Source of the DNA: Emcibacter sp.
Lineage (GTDB): Bacteria; Pseudomonadota; Alphaproteobacteria; Sphingomonadales; Emcibacteraceae
Direction: 5' to 3'
DNA length: 64,000 nt
Assembly: GCA_021741205.1 (NCBI GenBank)
Contig: JAIOYI010000006.1
Location: 62,001-126,000, forward strand
Made by a program: the position numbers and the translations under genes. Below the pieces are notes generated by a model. It saw nothing but the letters and a program-made list of their open reading frames with translations. It had not been told where the DNA came from and ran no database searches. This document shows, one piece after another, positions 5,616 through 36,960 of this stretch (positions are counted from its first letter, which is position 1; each line of letters begins with the position of its first letter).

Positions 5616-7183
5616 TGGAAATCAATATTATTTTAGACCTATTAATGTTTCTTTCTGTCATAATTTTTTTAATGGCAGGATTTCCAGTTGCCTTTACCCT
5701 TGGCGGAATAGCCATTATTTTTGTAGGAATTGGTCTATATTTCGGGGAAATAGATAGTGATTTTATTGGCCTAATTCCTGAACGTATTTATGGCACAATG
5801 ACCAATGATGTGCTTCTTGCCGTTCCCCTTTTTATTTTTATGGGCGTTATGCTAGAAAGATCAAAAATAGCTGAAGATTTACTGGACAGCATGGCAAAAC
5901 TTATGGGTCGATTGCCTGGTGGCCTTGGCATTTCGGTGACGATCGTTGGTGCCTTGCTTGCGGCATCAACGGGGATCGTGGGGGCAACTGTTGTTACAAT
6001 GGGATTATTAAGTTTGCCTACCATGTTAAAGAGGGGATATAATCCAGCCCTAGCATGTGGTTCTATTGCATCCTCAGGAACCTTAGGGCAAATTATCCCA
6101 CCGTCCATTGTTCTTGTTTTGCTTGGAGACCAGCTTTCATCAGCATGGCAAACCGCACAATTAAATTTAGGCAATTGGGCACCAGAGCCTTTATCGGTTG
6201 GCGATTTATTTGCAGGCGCCCTTATCCCTGGGATTTGTCTGGTATTTCTCTATATTATTTATCAAATCATTATTGCCATTTTTATGCCTAAAATGTCGCC
6301 TTCTTATATAGCGGAGGATGAGGATGTCTCTATTCCAACAAAACAACTCATCATGATATTTTTACCGCCCATTTTTCTTATCATTGCCGTACTTGGATCA
6401 ATCATAAGTGGGATTGCAACTCCCACCGAGGCCGCCGCCGTGGGGGCCATTGGAGCCATACTTATGGCGGGATATAAACTGTCTCCTGAAAAGCCTACAA
6501 TGATCTTTGCCGCAGGTTATTCTATGGCAGGACTTATTGTTCTGACCAATATTTTTGATTTAAGACTGGGCAGGGACGAAATTGCCATAACAGATTATAT
6601 AGGCATTTTTCTTGCTGTTATTTTAACATTATGTGTTCTTTGGGGAATTGGCGTAGCCGTTTATAGGACTTATATTGAAAAAACATTGCATATTGTCATG
6701 CAATCCACCACCCGTATCTCGGCCATGATTTTTATGATATTAATCGGAGCCGCTATGTTCTCTCTGGTCTTTAAGGGGTTCGAAGGCGATATATTCATTC
6801 ATGAATTTCTAAGTGATTTACCCGGTGGAAAATTAAGTGCCCTCATCCTTGTCATGTTGGTCATGTTTGTTCTGGGCTTTTTTCTGGACTTTATAGAGAT
6901 TGTTTTTGTGGTTGTCCCCATTGTCGCCCCTGTTCTGCTCATGATGGATATAAATCCCATATGGCTTGGTATTATGATGGCGATGAATTTACAAACTAGC
7001 TTTCTCACACCACCTTTTGGGTTTGCGCTTTTCTATCTACGGGGCGTTGCGCCAGAGTCCGTCAGCACAATGCAGATATATAAAGGTGTTCTACCTTTTG
7101 TTCTCATACAAATATTCATGCTCTGCATCCTGTGGGAATTCCCTGAACTCACCACATGGCTACCCAGTGTGTTATTTAAATAA
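5615..7183 (+). CDS. TRAP transporter large permease subunit (DctM type)
   Basis: This 522-residue polytopic membrane protein is the transport channel of the TRAP system, driving Na+-coupled uptake with the receptor. It has the family blocks ASTGIVGATVVTMG, ASSGTLGQIIPPSIVLVLLG and GIATPTEAAAVGAIGA. It is longer than typical 430-residue DctM proteins. An extra segment of about 80 residues with added helices around residues 300-370 is characteristic of the FcbT3/TakM subgroup and matches the receptor type. The ATG at 5615 overlaps the dctQ stop; an in-frame GTG at 5612 is less likely. No regulator gene adjoins the operon. Confidence 0.93.
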   Translation: MEINIILDLLMFLSVIIFLMAGFPVAFTLGGIAIIFVGIGLYFGEIDSDFIGLIPERIYGTMTNDVLLAVPLFIFMGVMLERSKIAEDLLDSMAKLMGRLPGGLGISVTIVGALLAASTGIVGATVVTMGLLSLPTMLKRGYNPALACGSIASSGTLGQIIPPSIVLVLLGDQLSSAWQTAQLNLGNWAPEPLSVGDLFAGALIPGICLVFLYIIYQIIIAIFMPKMSPSYIAEDEDVSIPTKQLIMIFLPPIFLIIAVLGSIISGIATPTEAAAVGAIGAILMAGYKLSPEKPTMIFAAGYSMAGLIVLTNIFDLRLGRDEIAITDYIGIFLAVILTLCVLWGIGVAVYRTYIEKTLHIVMQSTTRISAMIFMILIGAAMFSLVFKGFEGDIFIHEFLSDLPGGKLSALILVMLVMFVLGFFLDFIEIVFVVVPIVAPVLLMMDINPIWLGIMMAMNLQTSFLTPPFGFALFYLRGVAPESVSTMQIYKGVLPFVLIQIFMLCILWEFPELTTWLPSVLFK

Positions 7184-9511: not shown

Positions 9512-11179
9512 TCAGGCAATTTCTTTCAGAACCATTTTCCCACGCGAATTTTTGTCCAACATTTCGCCCTGTTTTTTATCCAGCATCAATTCTCTTGCCT
9601 TGGCATAGGAGGGATCTTGCCAGAAAATCAAACAGCCATTACAGCCCCTGCCACAACATCCCTCAACACCAATGCGGGGCGTCTTAAATTTCCGTTCCGC
9701 ATTGGCCTCATCTAAGCTTACCGCCAAAGCATCTCGCTTCTTTTCATAAAGCATCGCGGAGCCATGCCCCTGCTCTATCTTACTGGATTCTTTATCCAGT
9801 TTCAGACGATTCCATTGTTCACGGGTCAGCGCACGTTCTTTACGGATTATCGTCATTTCAGGGTAAGAAGTGCGAAGTTCTTCCAAATCTTCCCGATCAA
9901 ATAATGAAAAAGGCACCCGAATAAATGGCTTTTGCCCTGCATTGACCGCATCGGTGACTTTTTCAGTTCTGTTGTCAATAAATTCATAAATTCGTAGAAA
10001 AATAGTATTGCGACTAACCGGCGATACAAATTCAAGGACATCACCTGATTCTATACGATTTTTAACCTCAACAATAAAGGCATCATTCTCTACCTTATTG
10101 ACAAGTCCCGCAAATTCCCATTCCGCAATGGTTGACGTATTTTCGTAATTATGGGCATGATTTGTAAGCCGCCCTTCATGAAAGGCCAAGGTATAACCCC
10201 GACTTTGTACGGTATCCAGTTCCGCCATATATTTCTCAGGAGACCAGTTTTCTCTGTCTTCATACCAGTCATCTATTGCCATGCGGTAGGCTCTTGCCAC
10301 AAGAGCCACATAATATTGGCTTTTGTTACGGCCTTCTACTTTTAAACTATCAACACCAATGCGCAAATAATCATCAAGTTTTGGCATCAAACATAAGTCT
10401 TTGGAATTCAGAATATAAGAGCCCCGTTCATCTTCTTCTATAGGCATCAATTCACCTTCACGTACACCTTCTTCAAGTAAGAACTCAAACAAACCCAAAG
10501 TATGTTCATTAAGCTCTAACTCTTTGATTGTGCCGTCTTTTAGACGCATATGCACTTTATAATTCCAACGACAGCTATTGGCGCAATTCCCCTGATTTGC
10601 ACCCCGTTCCGACATATAATTGCTGAGCAGGCAACGTCCGCTATAGGTCATGCACATGGCACCGTGGACAAATGCTTCTAATTTTATATCTGGGCATTTT
10701 TCTCTGATCTCAACAAGTTCCGCATAAGAGACTTCCCGGGCAAGAACCGCAAGACTTGCCCCTTGCTCCTGCCAAAATTTTACACTAAGCCAGCTACAGA
10801 TATTTGCCTGTGTGGACACGTGAAGTTCCAGATCAGGCGCCATATCTTTCACATACTGAAACACGCCGGGGTCTGCAATGATCACACCATCAGGCTTTAC
10901 CTTGCGCACTGTTTTCACATATTGCTCAAGTTTTGGAATGTCCTTGTTATGAGAAAAAAGATTAAGCGTAAGGTAAACTCTTTTGCCATATTTATGAGCA
11001 AATTCAACACCTTCCACCACATCTTCTAAGGTAAACTCTGATTTCGTTCTTAAGGACATATCAGGGGTGCCAAGATAAATGGCATCAGCCCCATAAAGCA
11101 CCGCCATTTTTAACTTTTGGAGATCGCCTGCGGGCATTAAAAGTTCCGAGCGTTCGGGACGTTTGGCTAAAACTACCAT
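9512..11179 (-). CDS. trhP: U32 family protein, TrhP (YegQ)-like, with Cys-rich C-terminal extension
   Basis: The core matches the U32 peptidase-related family member TrhP/YegQ, which is needed for 5-hydroxyuridine formation in tRNA anticodon loops. A proteolytic role is unlikely. Four conserved cysteines (176, 183, 199, 203) lie in CMTYSGRCLLSNYM and GNCANSCRW and probably hold an Fe-S cluster. At 555 residues it is about 100 longer than E. coli TrhP. The extra C-terminus carries four more cysteines (508, 509, 513, 516) in GCCGRGCNGCLIFWQDP. The ATG at 11179 has an AGGAA ribosome site. The symbol is by family resemblance; RlhA-type U32 proteins are the alternative. Confidence 0.85.
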   Translation of the reverse strand: MVVLAKRPERSELLMPAGDLQKLKMAVLYGADAIYLGTPDMSLRTKSEFTLEDVVEGVEFAHKYGKRVYLTLNLFSHNKDIPKLEQYVKTVRKVKPDGVIIADPGVFQYVKDMAPDLELHVSTQANICSWLSVKFWQEQGASLAVLAREVSYAELVEIREKCPDIKLEAFVHGAMCMTYSGRCLLSNYMSERGANQGNCANSCRWNYKVHMRLKDGTIKELELNEHTLGLFEFLLEEGVREGELMPIEEDERGSYILNSKDLCLMPKLDDYLRIGVDSLKVEGRNKSQYYVALVARAYRMAIDDWYEDRENWSPEKYMAELDTVQSRGYTLAFHEGRLTNHAHNYENTSTIAEWEFAGLVNKVENDAFIVEVKNRIESGDVLEFVSPVSRNTIFLRIYEFIDNRTEKVTDAVNAGQKPFIRVPFSLFDREDLEELRTSYPEMTIIRKERALTREQWNRLKLDKESSKIEQGHGSAMLYEKKRDALAVSLDEANAERKFKTPRIGVEGCCGRGCNGCLIFWQDPSYAKARELMLDKKQGEMLDKNSRGKMVLKEIA

Positions 11180-32511: not shown

Positions 32512-32992
32512 TGAAATAGTAACGCTTGCCACACAAACACTGCAAATGGCACGGGATAAGGGGTTACACCTTGCGACTGCCGAATCCTGCACAGGCGGGC
32601 TTATTATGGGGGCATTAACAGAAATTGCGGGGTCGTCTGATGTGGTGGATCGGGGCTTTATCACCTATACCAACCGCGCTAAAATGGACATGTTGGGCGT
32701 TACGGCGGAAACCTTGCGCTTGGGCGGTGCCGTCACCCGTGAAACCGCTATTGCCATGGCGGTCGGCGCCTTAAAAAATTCATCGTCCAACATTGCCGTC
32801 TCCGTCACAGGCATCGCAGGCCCCACAGGCGGCAGCGAGGAAAAACCCGTCGGCCTTGTCCATATGGCGGCAGCTATGCGGGACGGCAAGATATTGCATG
32901 AAAAACACCTGTTTGGAGATGTGGGACGCTCCGAAGTCAGAGAAGCCACCGTCATTGCGGCCTTAAAGTTATTTATGCGGGCAATGAGCTGA
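32501..32992 (+). CDS. cinA: CinA C-terminal family protein (NMN deamidase, PncC type)
   Basis: A stand-alone CinA C-terminal domain (163 residues), the family with nicotinamide-mononucleotide deamidase activity in pyridine-nucleotide salvage. Motifs are TAESCTGGLIMGALTE, GSSDVVDRGFITYTN and SVTGIAGPTGGSEEKPVGLV. The N-terminal MoaB-like domain of full-length CinA is absent, as is common in proteobacteria. Its last codons are part of repeat copy A, and a decayed second copy of these codons lies 1.7 kb downstream. Confidence 0.93.
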   Translation: MFSDEIVTLATQTLQMARDKGLHLATAESCTGGLIMGALTEIAGSSDVVDRGFITYTNRAKMDMLGVTAETLRLGGAVTRETAIAMAVGALKNSSSNIAVSVTGIAGPTGGSEEKPVGLVHMAAAMRDGKILHEKHLFGDVGRSEVREATVIAALKLFMRAMS

Positions 32993-33044
32993 CCGTCCCT
33001 GTCATGACTTGTCCAAATAACAAAATCCATCAACCCATTAATTT
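32953..33044 (+). repeat. 92-bp direct repeat, copy A
   Basis: This copy spans the last 13 codons and stop of cinA and 52 bases beyond. It matches 34665-34756 in 84 of 92 positions without gaps. The longest identical stretch covers the CTGTCATGACTTGTCC region and the following bases through AAAAT. Together the copies flank the frameshifted EAL-like gene. Confidence 0.93.
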
Positions 33045-33125
33045 ATAATAATAAAAAAACTATTGGCAGTAATGTTCTTCTGTGTTTATCTTAAAACAGA
33101 ATGTCGTTGATTTAATATTATATTT

Positions 33126-33289: not shown

Positions 33290-34632
33290 ATGAGTAAAAT
33301 AATCGATATAATTACAAGGGTTGCTTTTGGAGAGCAAAAGCAACCCTCTGTAAAAACCAATCAACTGCGCAGAAAAAAACATTTTCAGAAAAACAGAATA
33401 AATCTTTCCTAAGTGGTGATACTGCGGCTAAGCTTGAGAAAATTCTATCCAGCGATAATCTCGTAGATACTGGGCGGATCAAGCTGTTGGGGTTGGAGAT
33501 CATCAAGAAGAAACTTGACAAAAATTGGCCCATATTACTTGAAAATATCCATGAATCTATGATCTTAATTACGGAAAGTCTCATTAGTGATAAAGATATT
33601 TTTTTTAAAAAATCCGATGATGAATTTATTATTGTTTTTGCCTCAACTACGGATGAGAGAGCCAAGTTAATTTCCGCAAAAATTTTGCAAAAATTGACGG
33701 AAAAATTTATTGGATCAGTGGAAACTAAGGATATTATTGTCAAAACTGCCGTAAATAAAGTTGATGGCGCGATAATGTTTCAATCAGAAGATCTCCAATG
33801 TATACTTAATCATAGCCAAAATGAGATTGTAAATCGGCATCTACATGATTTTCAAAATATTAACAGCCCTGTGGATACTTTAAAAGAAGAACCTTTTCTA
33901 TTTGGATACCGTCCGGTATGGGATTCTATTCATGAGGTTATTACAACTTTCATCGTAAAGCCCTGTGTATATACCTCAAGAAATATTAATAACAATTCAA
34001 GACCGAAGAAAATTGGCTATGACGTATTGGAAGATCCGGATTCCAAGCAAGCCAGAATCGATCTTGATTTGTTGACATTAACTTCCAGTATCGAAACACT
34101 TGAAGAACTCTATCAAAATAATTTCCGATCAATTTTTAATATATCTATTTGTTATGAGACCGTCTTTAATATAGAATTGCTTATGGAGTATATATCGCAT
34201 TGCAAGAATATTTCGCCTTCTCTTAAAAAATATATTGTTTTTCATTTAGTCGATTTTCCAGAAGGCATTCCAACTCCAAAATTACATTTCATCGTATCGA
34301 CGCTTAAAAAATACAGCAGTGCTGTGATGCTACTCACATCGACAAGTAGCTTGCATCTAGAAAAATATTTTGACTGTGGCATAAAAGTTATTGGGACTAA
34401 TATTTTAGATCACGGTCCTTCAACAGAAAAAACATGGCAAAAAATAGCTCTCTTTATTGAAAATTGTCATAAATACAAAATTAAGGTTGCACTCCTTGAC
34501 GTCAATACCTTAGAAGATCTGATTATAGCCCAGACAAAAGGTGTTGATTACATATCTGGTTTAACCATAGGAGATTATAAGGACACTTCTTGGCATATGA
34601 AGAGAAAGCCATGGAAAAATTTCCTGAAATAA
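33290..34632 (+). CDS. Degenerate GGDEF/EAL-like protein, frame broken at an A7 run
   Basis: The ATG at 33290 opens a 40-codon frame that ends in TAA at 33410-33412. A second frame, lacking any ATG or GTG upstream of 33487, runs through to 34632. Joining them by a -1 shift at the seven A residues 33373-33379 gives one 447-residue protein without loss of sequence. Its middle (about residues 60-170) resembles a worn GGDEF fold (KKSDDEFIIVFAS). The C-terminal 240 or so residues resemble an EAL barrel (FGYRPVWDSIHEV, SIFNISICYET, GVDYISGLTIGD). VKP replaces EAL and the usual metal-binding acids are not evident, so c-di-GMP hydrolysis is unlikely. It could be a pseudogene, a slippage-regulated gene or a sequencing error. 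A TTG at 33272 with AGG upstream is an alternative start. Confidence 0.65.
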
Positions 34633-34664: not shown

Positions 34665-34756
34665 CATTACGGCCATATAGTTATTTATGCGGGCAGTGGG
34701 CTGAACGCCCCTGTCATGACTTGTCCAAATAACAAAATCTATCAACCCATTAATTT
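34665..34756 (+). repeat. 92-bp direct repeat, copy B
   Basis: Second copy of the repeat at 32953-33044, starting 32 bases after the EAL-like stop. It includes a decayed version of the cinA 3' end: the LFMRA codons and a TGA are still readable, but an in-frame TAG has appeared. The copy therefore derives from the cinA end and not the reverse. Thirteen bases (CGCCCCTGTCATG, 34706-34718) recur at 36992-37004 after the kinase gene. Confidence 0.93.
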
Positions 34757-34794
34757 CTATGTCATTATATTAATCTTAGTAATCTTCACCTAAT

Positions 34795-36960
34795 ATGTTA
34801 TTGTATTTTGTAAATTTTATAGTTAGGAAATGCACTATTGTGGGAGATATATCTGATACTCTAGCCCCCCTATCCGTTGCATCTGAGCGGGCAAAACAAA
34901 AATCGAAAGAAGAGTTGGTAGCCGAAATTTTTCGATTGCATAAACTTATCGAAAGCACGCAATATCAAACGAAAACGGCTTACTGGGAATATGTTATAGA
35001 AACCCAAGACATAACCTTTTCCGAATATGCCTATAAACTTGTTGGCTTAGAGCCATATTCCATTAAATTGACAAACGAAATTTTTGATGAACTTATTCAT
35101 CCAGATGATCGTGATATGTTTGTGGCAATGCGCAACAAACTTGCTTCGGAGGGCATACCAGACGGCTTTGAATATCGCCTTCTTGTCAATGGTAAAACGA
35201 AACATATCAAGTTGACTTCCGTACTTGAGAAAAACGAAAATGGCGTCGGCATCAGAGTAATGGGTGCAACACAAGATATCACCGACCTTAAATATAATGA
35301 AGGCCGGTTACGTAAAATAAATTTATTTGCTCAAGATCTCATGACCCTACATTCGGAACAGGATCTCATATGGTATGTTGTAAAGCAAGTTGTCAGTGAA
35401 CTTGACCTTGAGGATTGTGTCATCTATCTGCTCGACAAAAATACCAATGAATTGGTTCAATCTGCGACCTATGGATTAAAATCTGGTGGTGACAGAGTGA
35501 TCAATAATAAACTCCGCATAAAAGTTGGAGAAGGCATTACTGGGCATGTTGCGATGACAAAAACTCCACTTATTATAGATGATATTACAAAGGATGATCG
35601 CTATATCGCCGATATTCCCGGTATGGGATCCGAAATTTGTGTGCCCATCATACATGAGGGGCAGCTTTTCGGCGTAATTGACAGTGAACATTCTGAAATA
35701 AATTATTTTACGGAAAATGACCAAAATCTTCTCAATACCATTGCCACACTTCTCGCGGCTAAACTTGGTCAATGGGATAATCTAGAAAAAATTAAGACCA
35801 GTGAGGCCCAATATCGTGAAGCACAAAGAATTGCTCACTTTGGCAGTTGGGATTGGGATCTGAAAAATAATATTATAAAACTCTCGAATGAGACATATCT
35901 CATCATGGGGCTAATACCTCAGGAGAAAGCTATTGATTTTAAGCAGTTTAGAAAATGCCTTCACCCCGATGATGTGGAGGCATTGACTACGACAGTAGAG
36001 CAAATGACACATATCCATAATGATTTTGATGCGAATTTTCGTATTGTCCGGCCCGATGGTGAAATACGTCACATACAATCCACTGGAGAAGCTTTTTTTG
36101 ACGACAATAATTCCGCCTTCAGAATGAGCGGAAGCATGTTGGATATCACAAAAATTAAAATAGCAGAAGATGCCTTAATGCGACATAAAGAAAATCTTGA
36201 AATGTTGGTAGAAGAGCGTACCGCCAGCATGAAATCCGCCCGTGATGAGGCGGAACAAGCCAATAAAGCAAAATCAGAATTTCTGTCACAGATGAGCCAT
36301 GAATTAAGAACACCCTTAAATGCTATTCTCGGATTTGGGCAACTTCTTAAGTTGGATTCTGATCTATTAAACGAAATACAGCAAGATAACGTGGAGGAAA
36401 TTTTATCCGCAGGAAGTCATCTATTAGAATTAATCAATGACATTTTGGATTTGACAAAAATTGAAACAAGAAAACTGAAAATCTCAATAAGTAAAATTCA
36501 CATTGATGAGATCATTCCGCAATGCCTTACTTTAATAGCGGCACCGGCAAACGAACGGCATCTCAATATTACAACGAATATTAAAAACACAGGGCATGTT
36601 ATCATGTCCGATGGCACAAGATTTAGGCAAGTTATGCTTAATCTTCTGTCTAATGCGGTTAAATACAACCGAGACTATGGCGACATCACACTAGATTATA
36701 AGATTATGGATGAAAACCATCTTCGAATATATGTAACAGACACGGGGATGGGACTATCAGAAAATGAAATCGCTAATTTATACACCCCATTCGAGCGTTT
36801 TAATAAAACCATTAATGTTGAAGGCACAGGCATTGGCTTGGTGATCACCAAAACGTTGGTTGAGTTAATGGGCGGAACGATGGGTGTCGAGAGTATTGTG
36901 GGCAAAGGCTGTTCATTTTGGGTGGAGTTTTTACGCTCTGATCCTGCATCGATGACATAA
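34795..36960 (+). CDS. Orphan PAS-GAF-PAS sensor histidine kinase
   Basis: A soluble sensor kinase of 721 residues. Domains in order are PAS (about 60-165, ending GATQDITDLK), GAF (about 175-325, VGEGITGHVAM and SEICVPI), PAS/PAC (about 335-460, GSWDWDLK and HPDDVEAL), HisKA with His502 in SQMSHELRTPLNAILGFGQ, and HATPase_c (LNLLSNAVKYN, DTGMGLSENE, GTGIGLVITKTLVELMGG). It has no receiver domain and no response regulator adjoins it. The ATG at 34795 lacks a ribosome site. A GTG at 34840, with AGGA 11 bases upstream, is a reasonable alternative that would remove 15 poorly conserved residues. Confidence 0.9.
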   Translation: MLLYFVNFIVRKCTIVGDISDTLAPLSVASERAKQKSKEELVAEIFRLHKLIESTQYQTKTAYWEYVIETQDITFSEYAYKLVGLEPYSIKLTNEIFDELIHPDDRDMFVAMRNKLASEGIPDGFEYRLLVNGKTKHIKLTSVLEKNENGVGIRVMGATQDITDLKYNEGRLRKINLFAQDLMTLHSEQDLIWYVVKQVVSELDLEDCVIYLLDKNTNELVQSATYGLKSGGDRVINNKLRIKVGEGITGHVAMTKTPLIIDDITKDDRYIADIPGMGSEICVPIIHEGQLFGVIDSEHSEINYFTENDQNLLNTIATLLAAKLGQWDNLEKIKTSEAQYREAQRIAHFGSWDWDLKNNIIKLSNETYLIMGLIPQEKAIDFKQFRKCLHPDDVEALTTTVEQMTHIHNDFDANFRIVRPDGEIRHIQSTGEAFFDDNNSAFRMSGSMLDITKIKIAEDALMRHKENLEMLVEERTASMKSARDEAEQANKAKSEFLSQMSHELRTPLNAILGFGQLLKLDSDLLNEIQQDNVEEILSAGSHLLELINDILDLTKIETRKLKISISKIHIDEIIPQCLTLIAAPANERHLNITTNIKNTGHVIMSDGTRFRQVMLNLLSNAVKYNRDYGDITLDYKIMDENHLRIYVTDTGMGLSENEIANLYTPFERFNKTINVEGTGIGLVITKTLVELMGGTMGVESIVGKGCSFWVEFLRSDPASMT

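Follow-up and report, generated by a model that had tools for sequence, protein, structure and literature searches.

Positions 33290–34632 of the window, the whole 64,000-nucleotide stretch of Emcibacter sp. DNA that was analysed, hold what reading frames and homologues indicate is one gene, split by a length change of a single base where its relatives keep an intact frame. The break is very probably not programmed, decay and assembly error being taken together. Our preferred explanation, on which we are evenly balanced, is a real and recent inactivation, which would make the gene an early pseudogene.

Reading frames and homologues across the break

The frame-0 head of the gene runs on the plus strand from an ATG at 33290 through 40 codons to a TAA stop at 33410–33412. 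The −1 frame opens after a TAA at 33295–33297 and stays open from 33298 to its stop at 34630–34632, with no other stop inside; its body (33379–34632, plus strand), predicted to encode a degenerate GGDEF-EAL-like protein, comprises 417 codons and the stop. An A7 run (33373–33379, plus strand), with G (33372) on its 5′ side and C (33380) on its 3′ side, is read in the ATG 33290 frame as CGC AGA AAA AAA CAT, which gives it the A AAA AAA phase of the −1 type, upstream of the frame-0 stop. Recalculation returned the coordinates, the stop at 33410, the CGC AGA AAA AAA reading and the heptamer phase given by the first-pass annotation, as well as its 447 residues for head and body joined. The annotation had also reported that the −1 frame contains no ATG or GTG before 33487, which is true and understated: the earliest usable start is a TTG (33487–33489, plus strand), and the earliest ATG or GTG is at 33559. 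It had placed the break exactly at the A7 run. The frame break is real, but the switch could lie anywhere within 33298–33409, and the run is its likely rather than its proven site. A coding-potential scan that was blind to this finding and covered 817,967 bases (32% of the assembly, 625 coding segments) also flagged the gene, with a coding signal from 33388, as one of six segments in which the coding signal starts far 5′ of a usable start codon.

The −1 frame (417 residues) was matched in 15 of the 60 genomes searched, its own genome counted. All 14 homologues in our alignment, which omits L003 (in-frame stops), the order-level matches L013–L015 (n = 3) and the fragment L016, extend upstream of residue 37, the position of the TTG at 33487. 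The homologues have one open frame through the break site, which continues upstream into an N-terminal stretch, and none has an A7 or other run at the place of the break; this frame break occurs in no genome but its own. The closest homologue, L003, carries a matching N-terminus in-frame with its conserved domain, without an A7 run. When the frame-0 peptide (MSKIIDIITRVAF...) was compared with the N-terminus of L003, 21 of 2000 shuffles scored as well; the corresponding numbers were 18 of 2000 for L005, whose N-terminus and body share one frame, and 17 of 2000 for L018, where the match spans only 13 residues. For five of the eight homologues tested (L004, L006, L007, L022 and L008), no significant similarity to the frame-0 peptide was found. 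It is the in-frame N-terminus of L003, together with the beginning of all 14 aligned homologues upstream of 33487, that leads us to read the two frames as parts of a single broken gene. Homologues naturally starting near 33487, which the first-pass annotation had named as evidence against a split gene, do not occur among those aligned. An internal start at 33487 giving a natural short protein was ruled out, as the domain conserved in the family already begins before this position. In the structural model, a product begun at this TTG would start beyond the first helix and first strand of the first domain; such a product would probably be non-functional.

Beyond these genomes, plasmid homologues were limited to two Azospirillum records with 23–24% identity. 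A search of genome contigs with the window protein as the query gave no match, and with A2 as the query it gave four metagenome-assembled genomes, one of them of Kordiimonadaceae. A literature search joining ‘EAL domain’ and ‘Kordiimonadaceae’ returned no paper, which is no proof of absence.

The predicted protein

For the −1 frame body, AlphaFold predicts a tandem GGDEF and EAL fold (mean pLDDT 83.4, pTM 0.58). The best Foldseek matches of this model are GGDEF-EAL dual-domain proteins, including LapD (3pjw, E 7.8e-14), and comparison with the EAL domains of FimX and LapD gave a VIA-align Z of about 22. GGDEF and ExLxR are the signature motifs of the GGDEF-EAL family. A Pfam search with the −1 frame body did not reach the cut-offs, and an EAL match was obtained for 6 of the 15 family members (best E 9.8e-05). 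In weak profile alignments to DosC and Lmo0131, the signature residues are replaced: an SDDEF-like sequence stands at the GGDEF place, and the EAL motif lacks its E in an EAL alignment that is itself weak. The ‘EAL-like’ label of the first-pass annotation is thus justified by the fold, but not by the signature motifs. We read the protein as a degenerate, probably non-catalytic GGDEF-EAL relative. It resembles degenerate proteins of the LapD/FimX type in its predicted fold, whereas it differs from them in falling below the Pfam cut-offs and in its replaced signature residues, and binding of c-di-GMP by the window protein is only putative.

Recoding, slippage and the upstream hairpin

For programmed −1 ribosomal frameshifting, which would yield two products from the gene, the heptamer A AAA AAA stands in the right phase. 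However, the 3′ side shows no notable structure in a test of pseudoknot-free folds (z +0.82 for 61 nt and +0.61 for 115 nt), and the two-frame layout is not conserved, the homologues being in one frame through the site. Moreover, the heptamer is common: in a sample of 417,967 bases, 258 intact ORFs other than this gene contain 137 runs of A7 or longer, of which 58 are in-phase A_AAA_AAA. We therefore rejected a programmed shift, for which stimulator and conservation are both missing, and regard it as very improbable.

Phase variation, in which the length of the A run would differ within the population, could draw on the fact that the run lies close to the 5′ end in a signalling-like gene. Against it, A7 is ordinary in this genome (the same 258 ORFs contain 110 A7, 24 A8 and 3 A9 runs) and short for such switching, and the homologues have no run at the corresponding position; we consider phase variation hardly credible.

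The coding head also contains a perfect 13-bp inverted repeat with a 5-nt loop (33317–33347, plus strand), 25 nt 5′ of the A7 run. This hairpin (z −4.78) has no second copy in the genome when two mismatches are allowed, and no other sampled run of A7 or longer has a fold beside it as strong as that of the hairpin's 100-nt context (1 of 298, itself). The folded 5′ regions of 14 homologues gave z values of −2.71 to +0.56 and no hairpin of comparable kind, and an Rfam search found no family with an E value of 1 or lower. On these two grounds, we rejected the hairpin as a conserved RNA element. A more extended fold brings an outer arm up to the A7 run, but 151 of 2000 shuffles and 8 of 297 other runs were as good, and it does not exceed chance. 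A scan for promoters and terminators found nothing above chance.

In a further alternative, the polymerase, or at a low level the ribosome, would slip at A7, so that some full-length protein is still made and the gene is partly expressed. Excerpted results in PMC3812077 describe the bypass of frame-shifting indels in homonucleotide repeats of 3–8 bases, 8A above all, in an experimental gene, with functional protein as the outcome. In the excerpt of PMC4256274, tssM is rescued by slippage on 11 A. The conserved body of the gene and the unusual strength of the hairpin 5′ of the run are also in line with rescue. Yet PMC5574713 reports transcription insertions climbing exponentially with run length, and the run here has only seven bases, short of the 9 or more in dnaX (PMC5009743, in excerpt) as well as of the 11 in tssM. 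The hairpin lies 25 nt from the run, whereas the stem-loop is adjacent in a case that the same excerpted review describes, and the stem-loop-assisted cases given there use other motifs than A7. The fold that does reach the run stays within chance, and no homologue has this layout. We consider rescue by slippage unlikely.

The closest parallel is tssM of Citrobacter rodentium, in which, as described in the same excerpt (PMC4256274), an A run likewise stands just before the interrupting stop and the intact form is known from relatives. That gene has A11, whereas the window gene has A7 and is known from sequence alone. In a stronger form of this alternative, A7 would serve as an expression control: slippage of RNA polymerase, aided by the hairpin in the nascent RNA and possibly by the outer arm that reaches the run, would put a fraction of the messages in frame and set a low, tuned level of the degenerate GGDEF-EAL protein. 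This form appears decidedly unlikely to us.

Recent decay or assembly error

In the explanation that we prefer, recent decay, replication slippage in the real chromosome, most probably at A7, would have produced the single-base break in a patchily distributed gene that would be dispensable. Translation from the ATG at 33290 ends after 40 residues. We infer both the presence of the break in the chromosome itself and the loss of the protein. Homopolymers are the usual place for such slips, according to the excerpt of PMC3812077, and intact homologues span the lesion. The gene occurs in 13 of 32 genomes of the family and in 3 of 16 genomes of the same genus, its own genome counted. The closest homologue (L003, G022; 1492–2739) is broken as well, by an in-frame TAA and an in-frame TGA, the latter at a family-invariant glycine; these lesions are substitutions and independent of the break in the window. 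The G+C content of the gene is 33.5%, and among 181 ORFs in the sample with 300 codons or more only 3 are lower; 7 of them have a lower coding score. Homopolymer-indel pseudogenes are similar in their single-base break at a homopolymer, the patchy gene and the broken closest homologue, but differ in that the window copy shows no second lesion so far.

The gene sits in a stretch that is missing from the cinA–ratA interval of L031, L032, L036 and L040, the relatives in which both cinA and ratA were seen. A 95-nt direct repeat, of which the genome contains these two copies only, lies on each side of the broken gene: copy 1 (32953–33047, plus strand) covers the 3′ end of cinA and bases downstream of it, and copy 2 (34665–34759, plus strand), 91% identical, stands beyond the gene. 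Since only these two copies exist and they flank the broken gene, the segment may have come in together with a duplicated end of cinA. Both the hairpin and the 95-nt repeats are real, and neither changes the verdict on the break. A gene for a PAS-GAF-PAS histidine kinase (34795–36960) also lies within the cinA–ratA stretch; the cinA and homologue loci searched in relatives did not contain it.

Against long decay, the body of the gene keeps 40 of 43 family-conserved columns. Because of these columns, and with no other stop in the body, decay, if real, must be very young. The same conservation speaks for a sequencing or assembly error, in which the chromosomal frame would be intact and the gene functional. 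This is the main rival to recent decay and a serious, if tentative, possibility. The break falls on a homopolymer, and the assembly (18 contigs, 94.44% completeness) is perhaps metagenomic. The same assembly also has a second single-base break in an otherwise clean acyl-CoA dehydrogenase gene (L060 on G000 contig C1, minus strand, about 5697–5850 in the numbering of that strand), next to a G5 run. Its two parts, read in different frames, match positions 6–53 and 54–113 of PF02771, and this break is unrelated to that of the GGDEF-EAL-like gene. Against decay alone, this second break fits scattered assembly errors as well as it fits pseudogenes.

In favour of a correct assembly, 340 A or T runs of seven or more in 497 sampled ORFs are read through, a partly circular count that includes intact ORFs only. 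No further frame break was flagged at such a run, which is a weak bound, as the scan rule caught 50 of 340 simulated single-base losses. In addition, L003 was broken independently, by substitutions. On the same sensitivity of the scan rule, the true number of breaks in the assembly could be several times larger. Inspection of the six segments flagged in the wider scan identified two frame breaks (that of the gene at 33290–34632 included), two TTG starts (L056 and L099), one probable CTG start (L057) and one ambiguous case (L098). A first scan (417,967 bases) had given 39 places where one frame passes directly into another, all with the look of normal borders between genes. In L057 (minus strand, about 9978–10140 on that strand), the coding signal lies upstream of any ATG, GTG or TTG; the gene, taken for thiL by eye, possibly starts at a CTG that follows an AGGAG-like site.

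Among the four options offered by the first-pass annotation (programmed frameshifting, transcriptional slippage, phase variation, and error or decay), error or decay fits best, and programmed frameshifting is unsupported, given the missing 3′ stimulator, the missing conservation and the common heptamer. The frame break is real, and its explanation appears to be an ordinary one, with no programmed switch. Should the slippage reading hold, known control by transcriptional slippage would be extended to a run shorter than the A11 of tssM and to a stem-loop that is not adjacent. The comparison with intact ORFs serves as a calibration: the in-phase A AAA AAA is everyday sequence in this genome (window G+C content 41.6%), and because the heptamer is so common, a frame break at A AAA AAA is by itself no sign of recoding.
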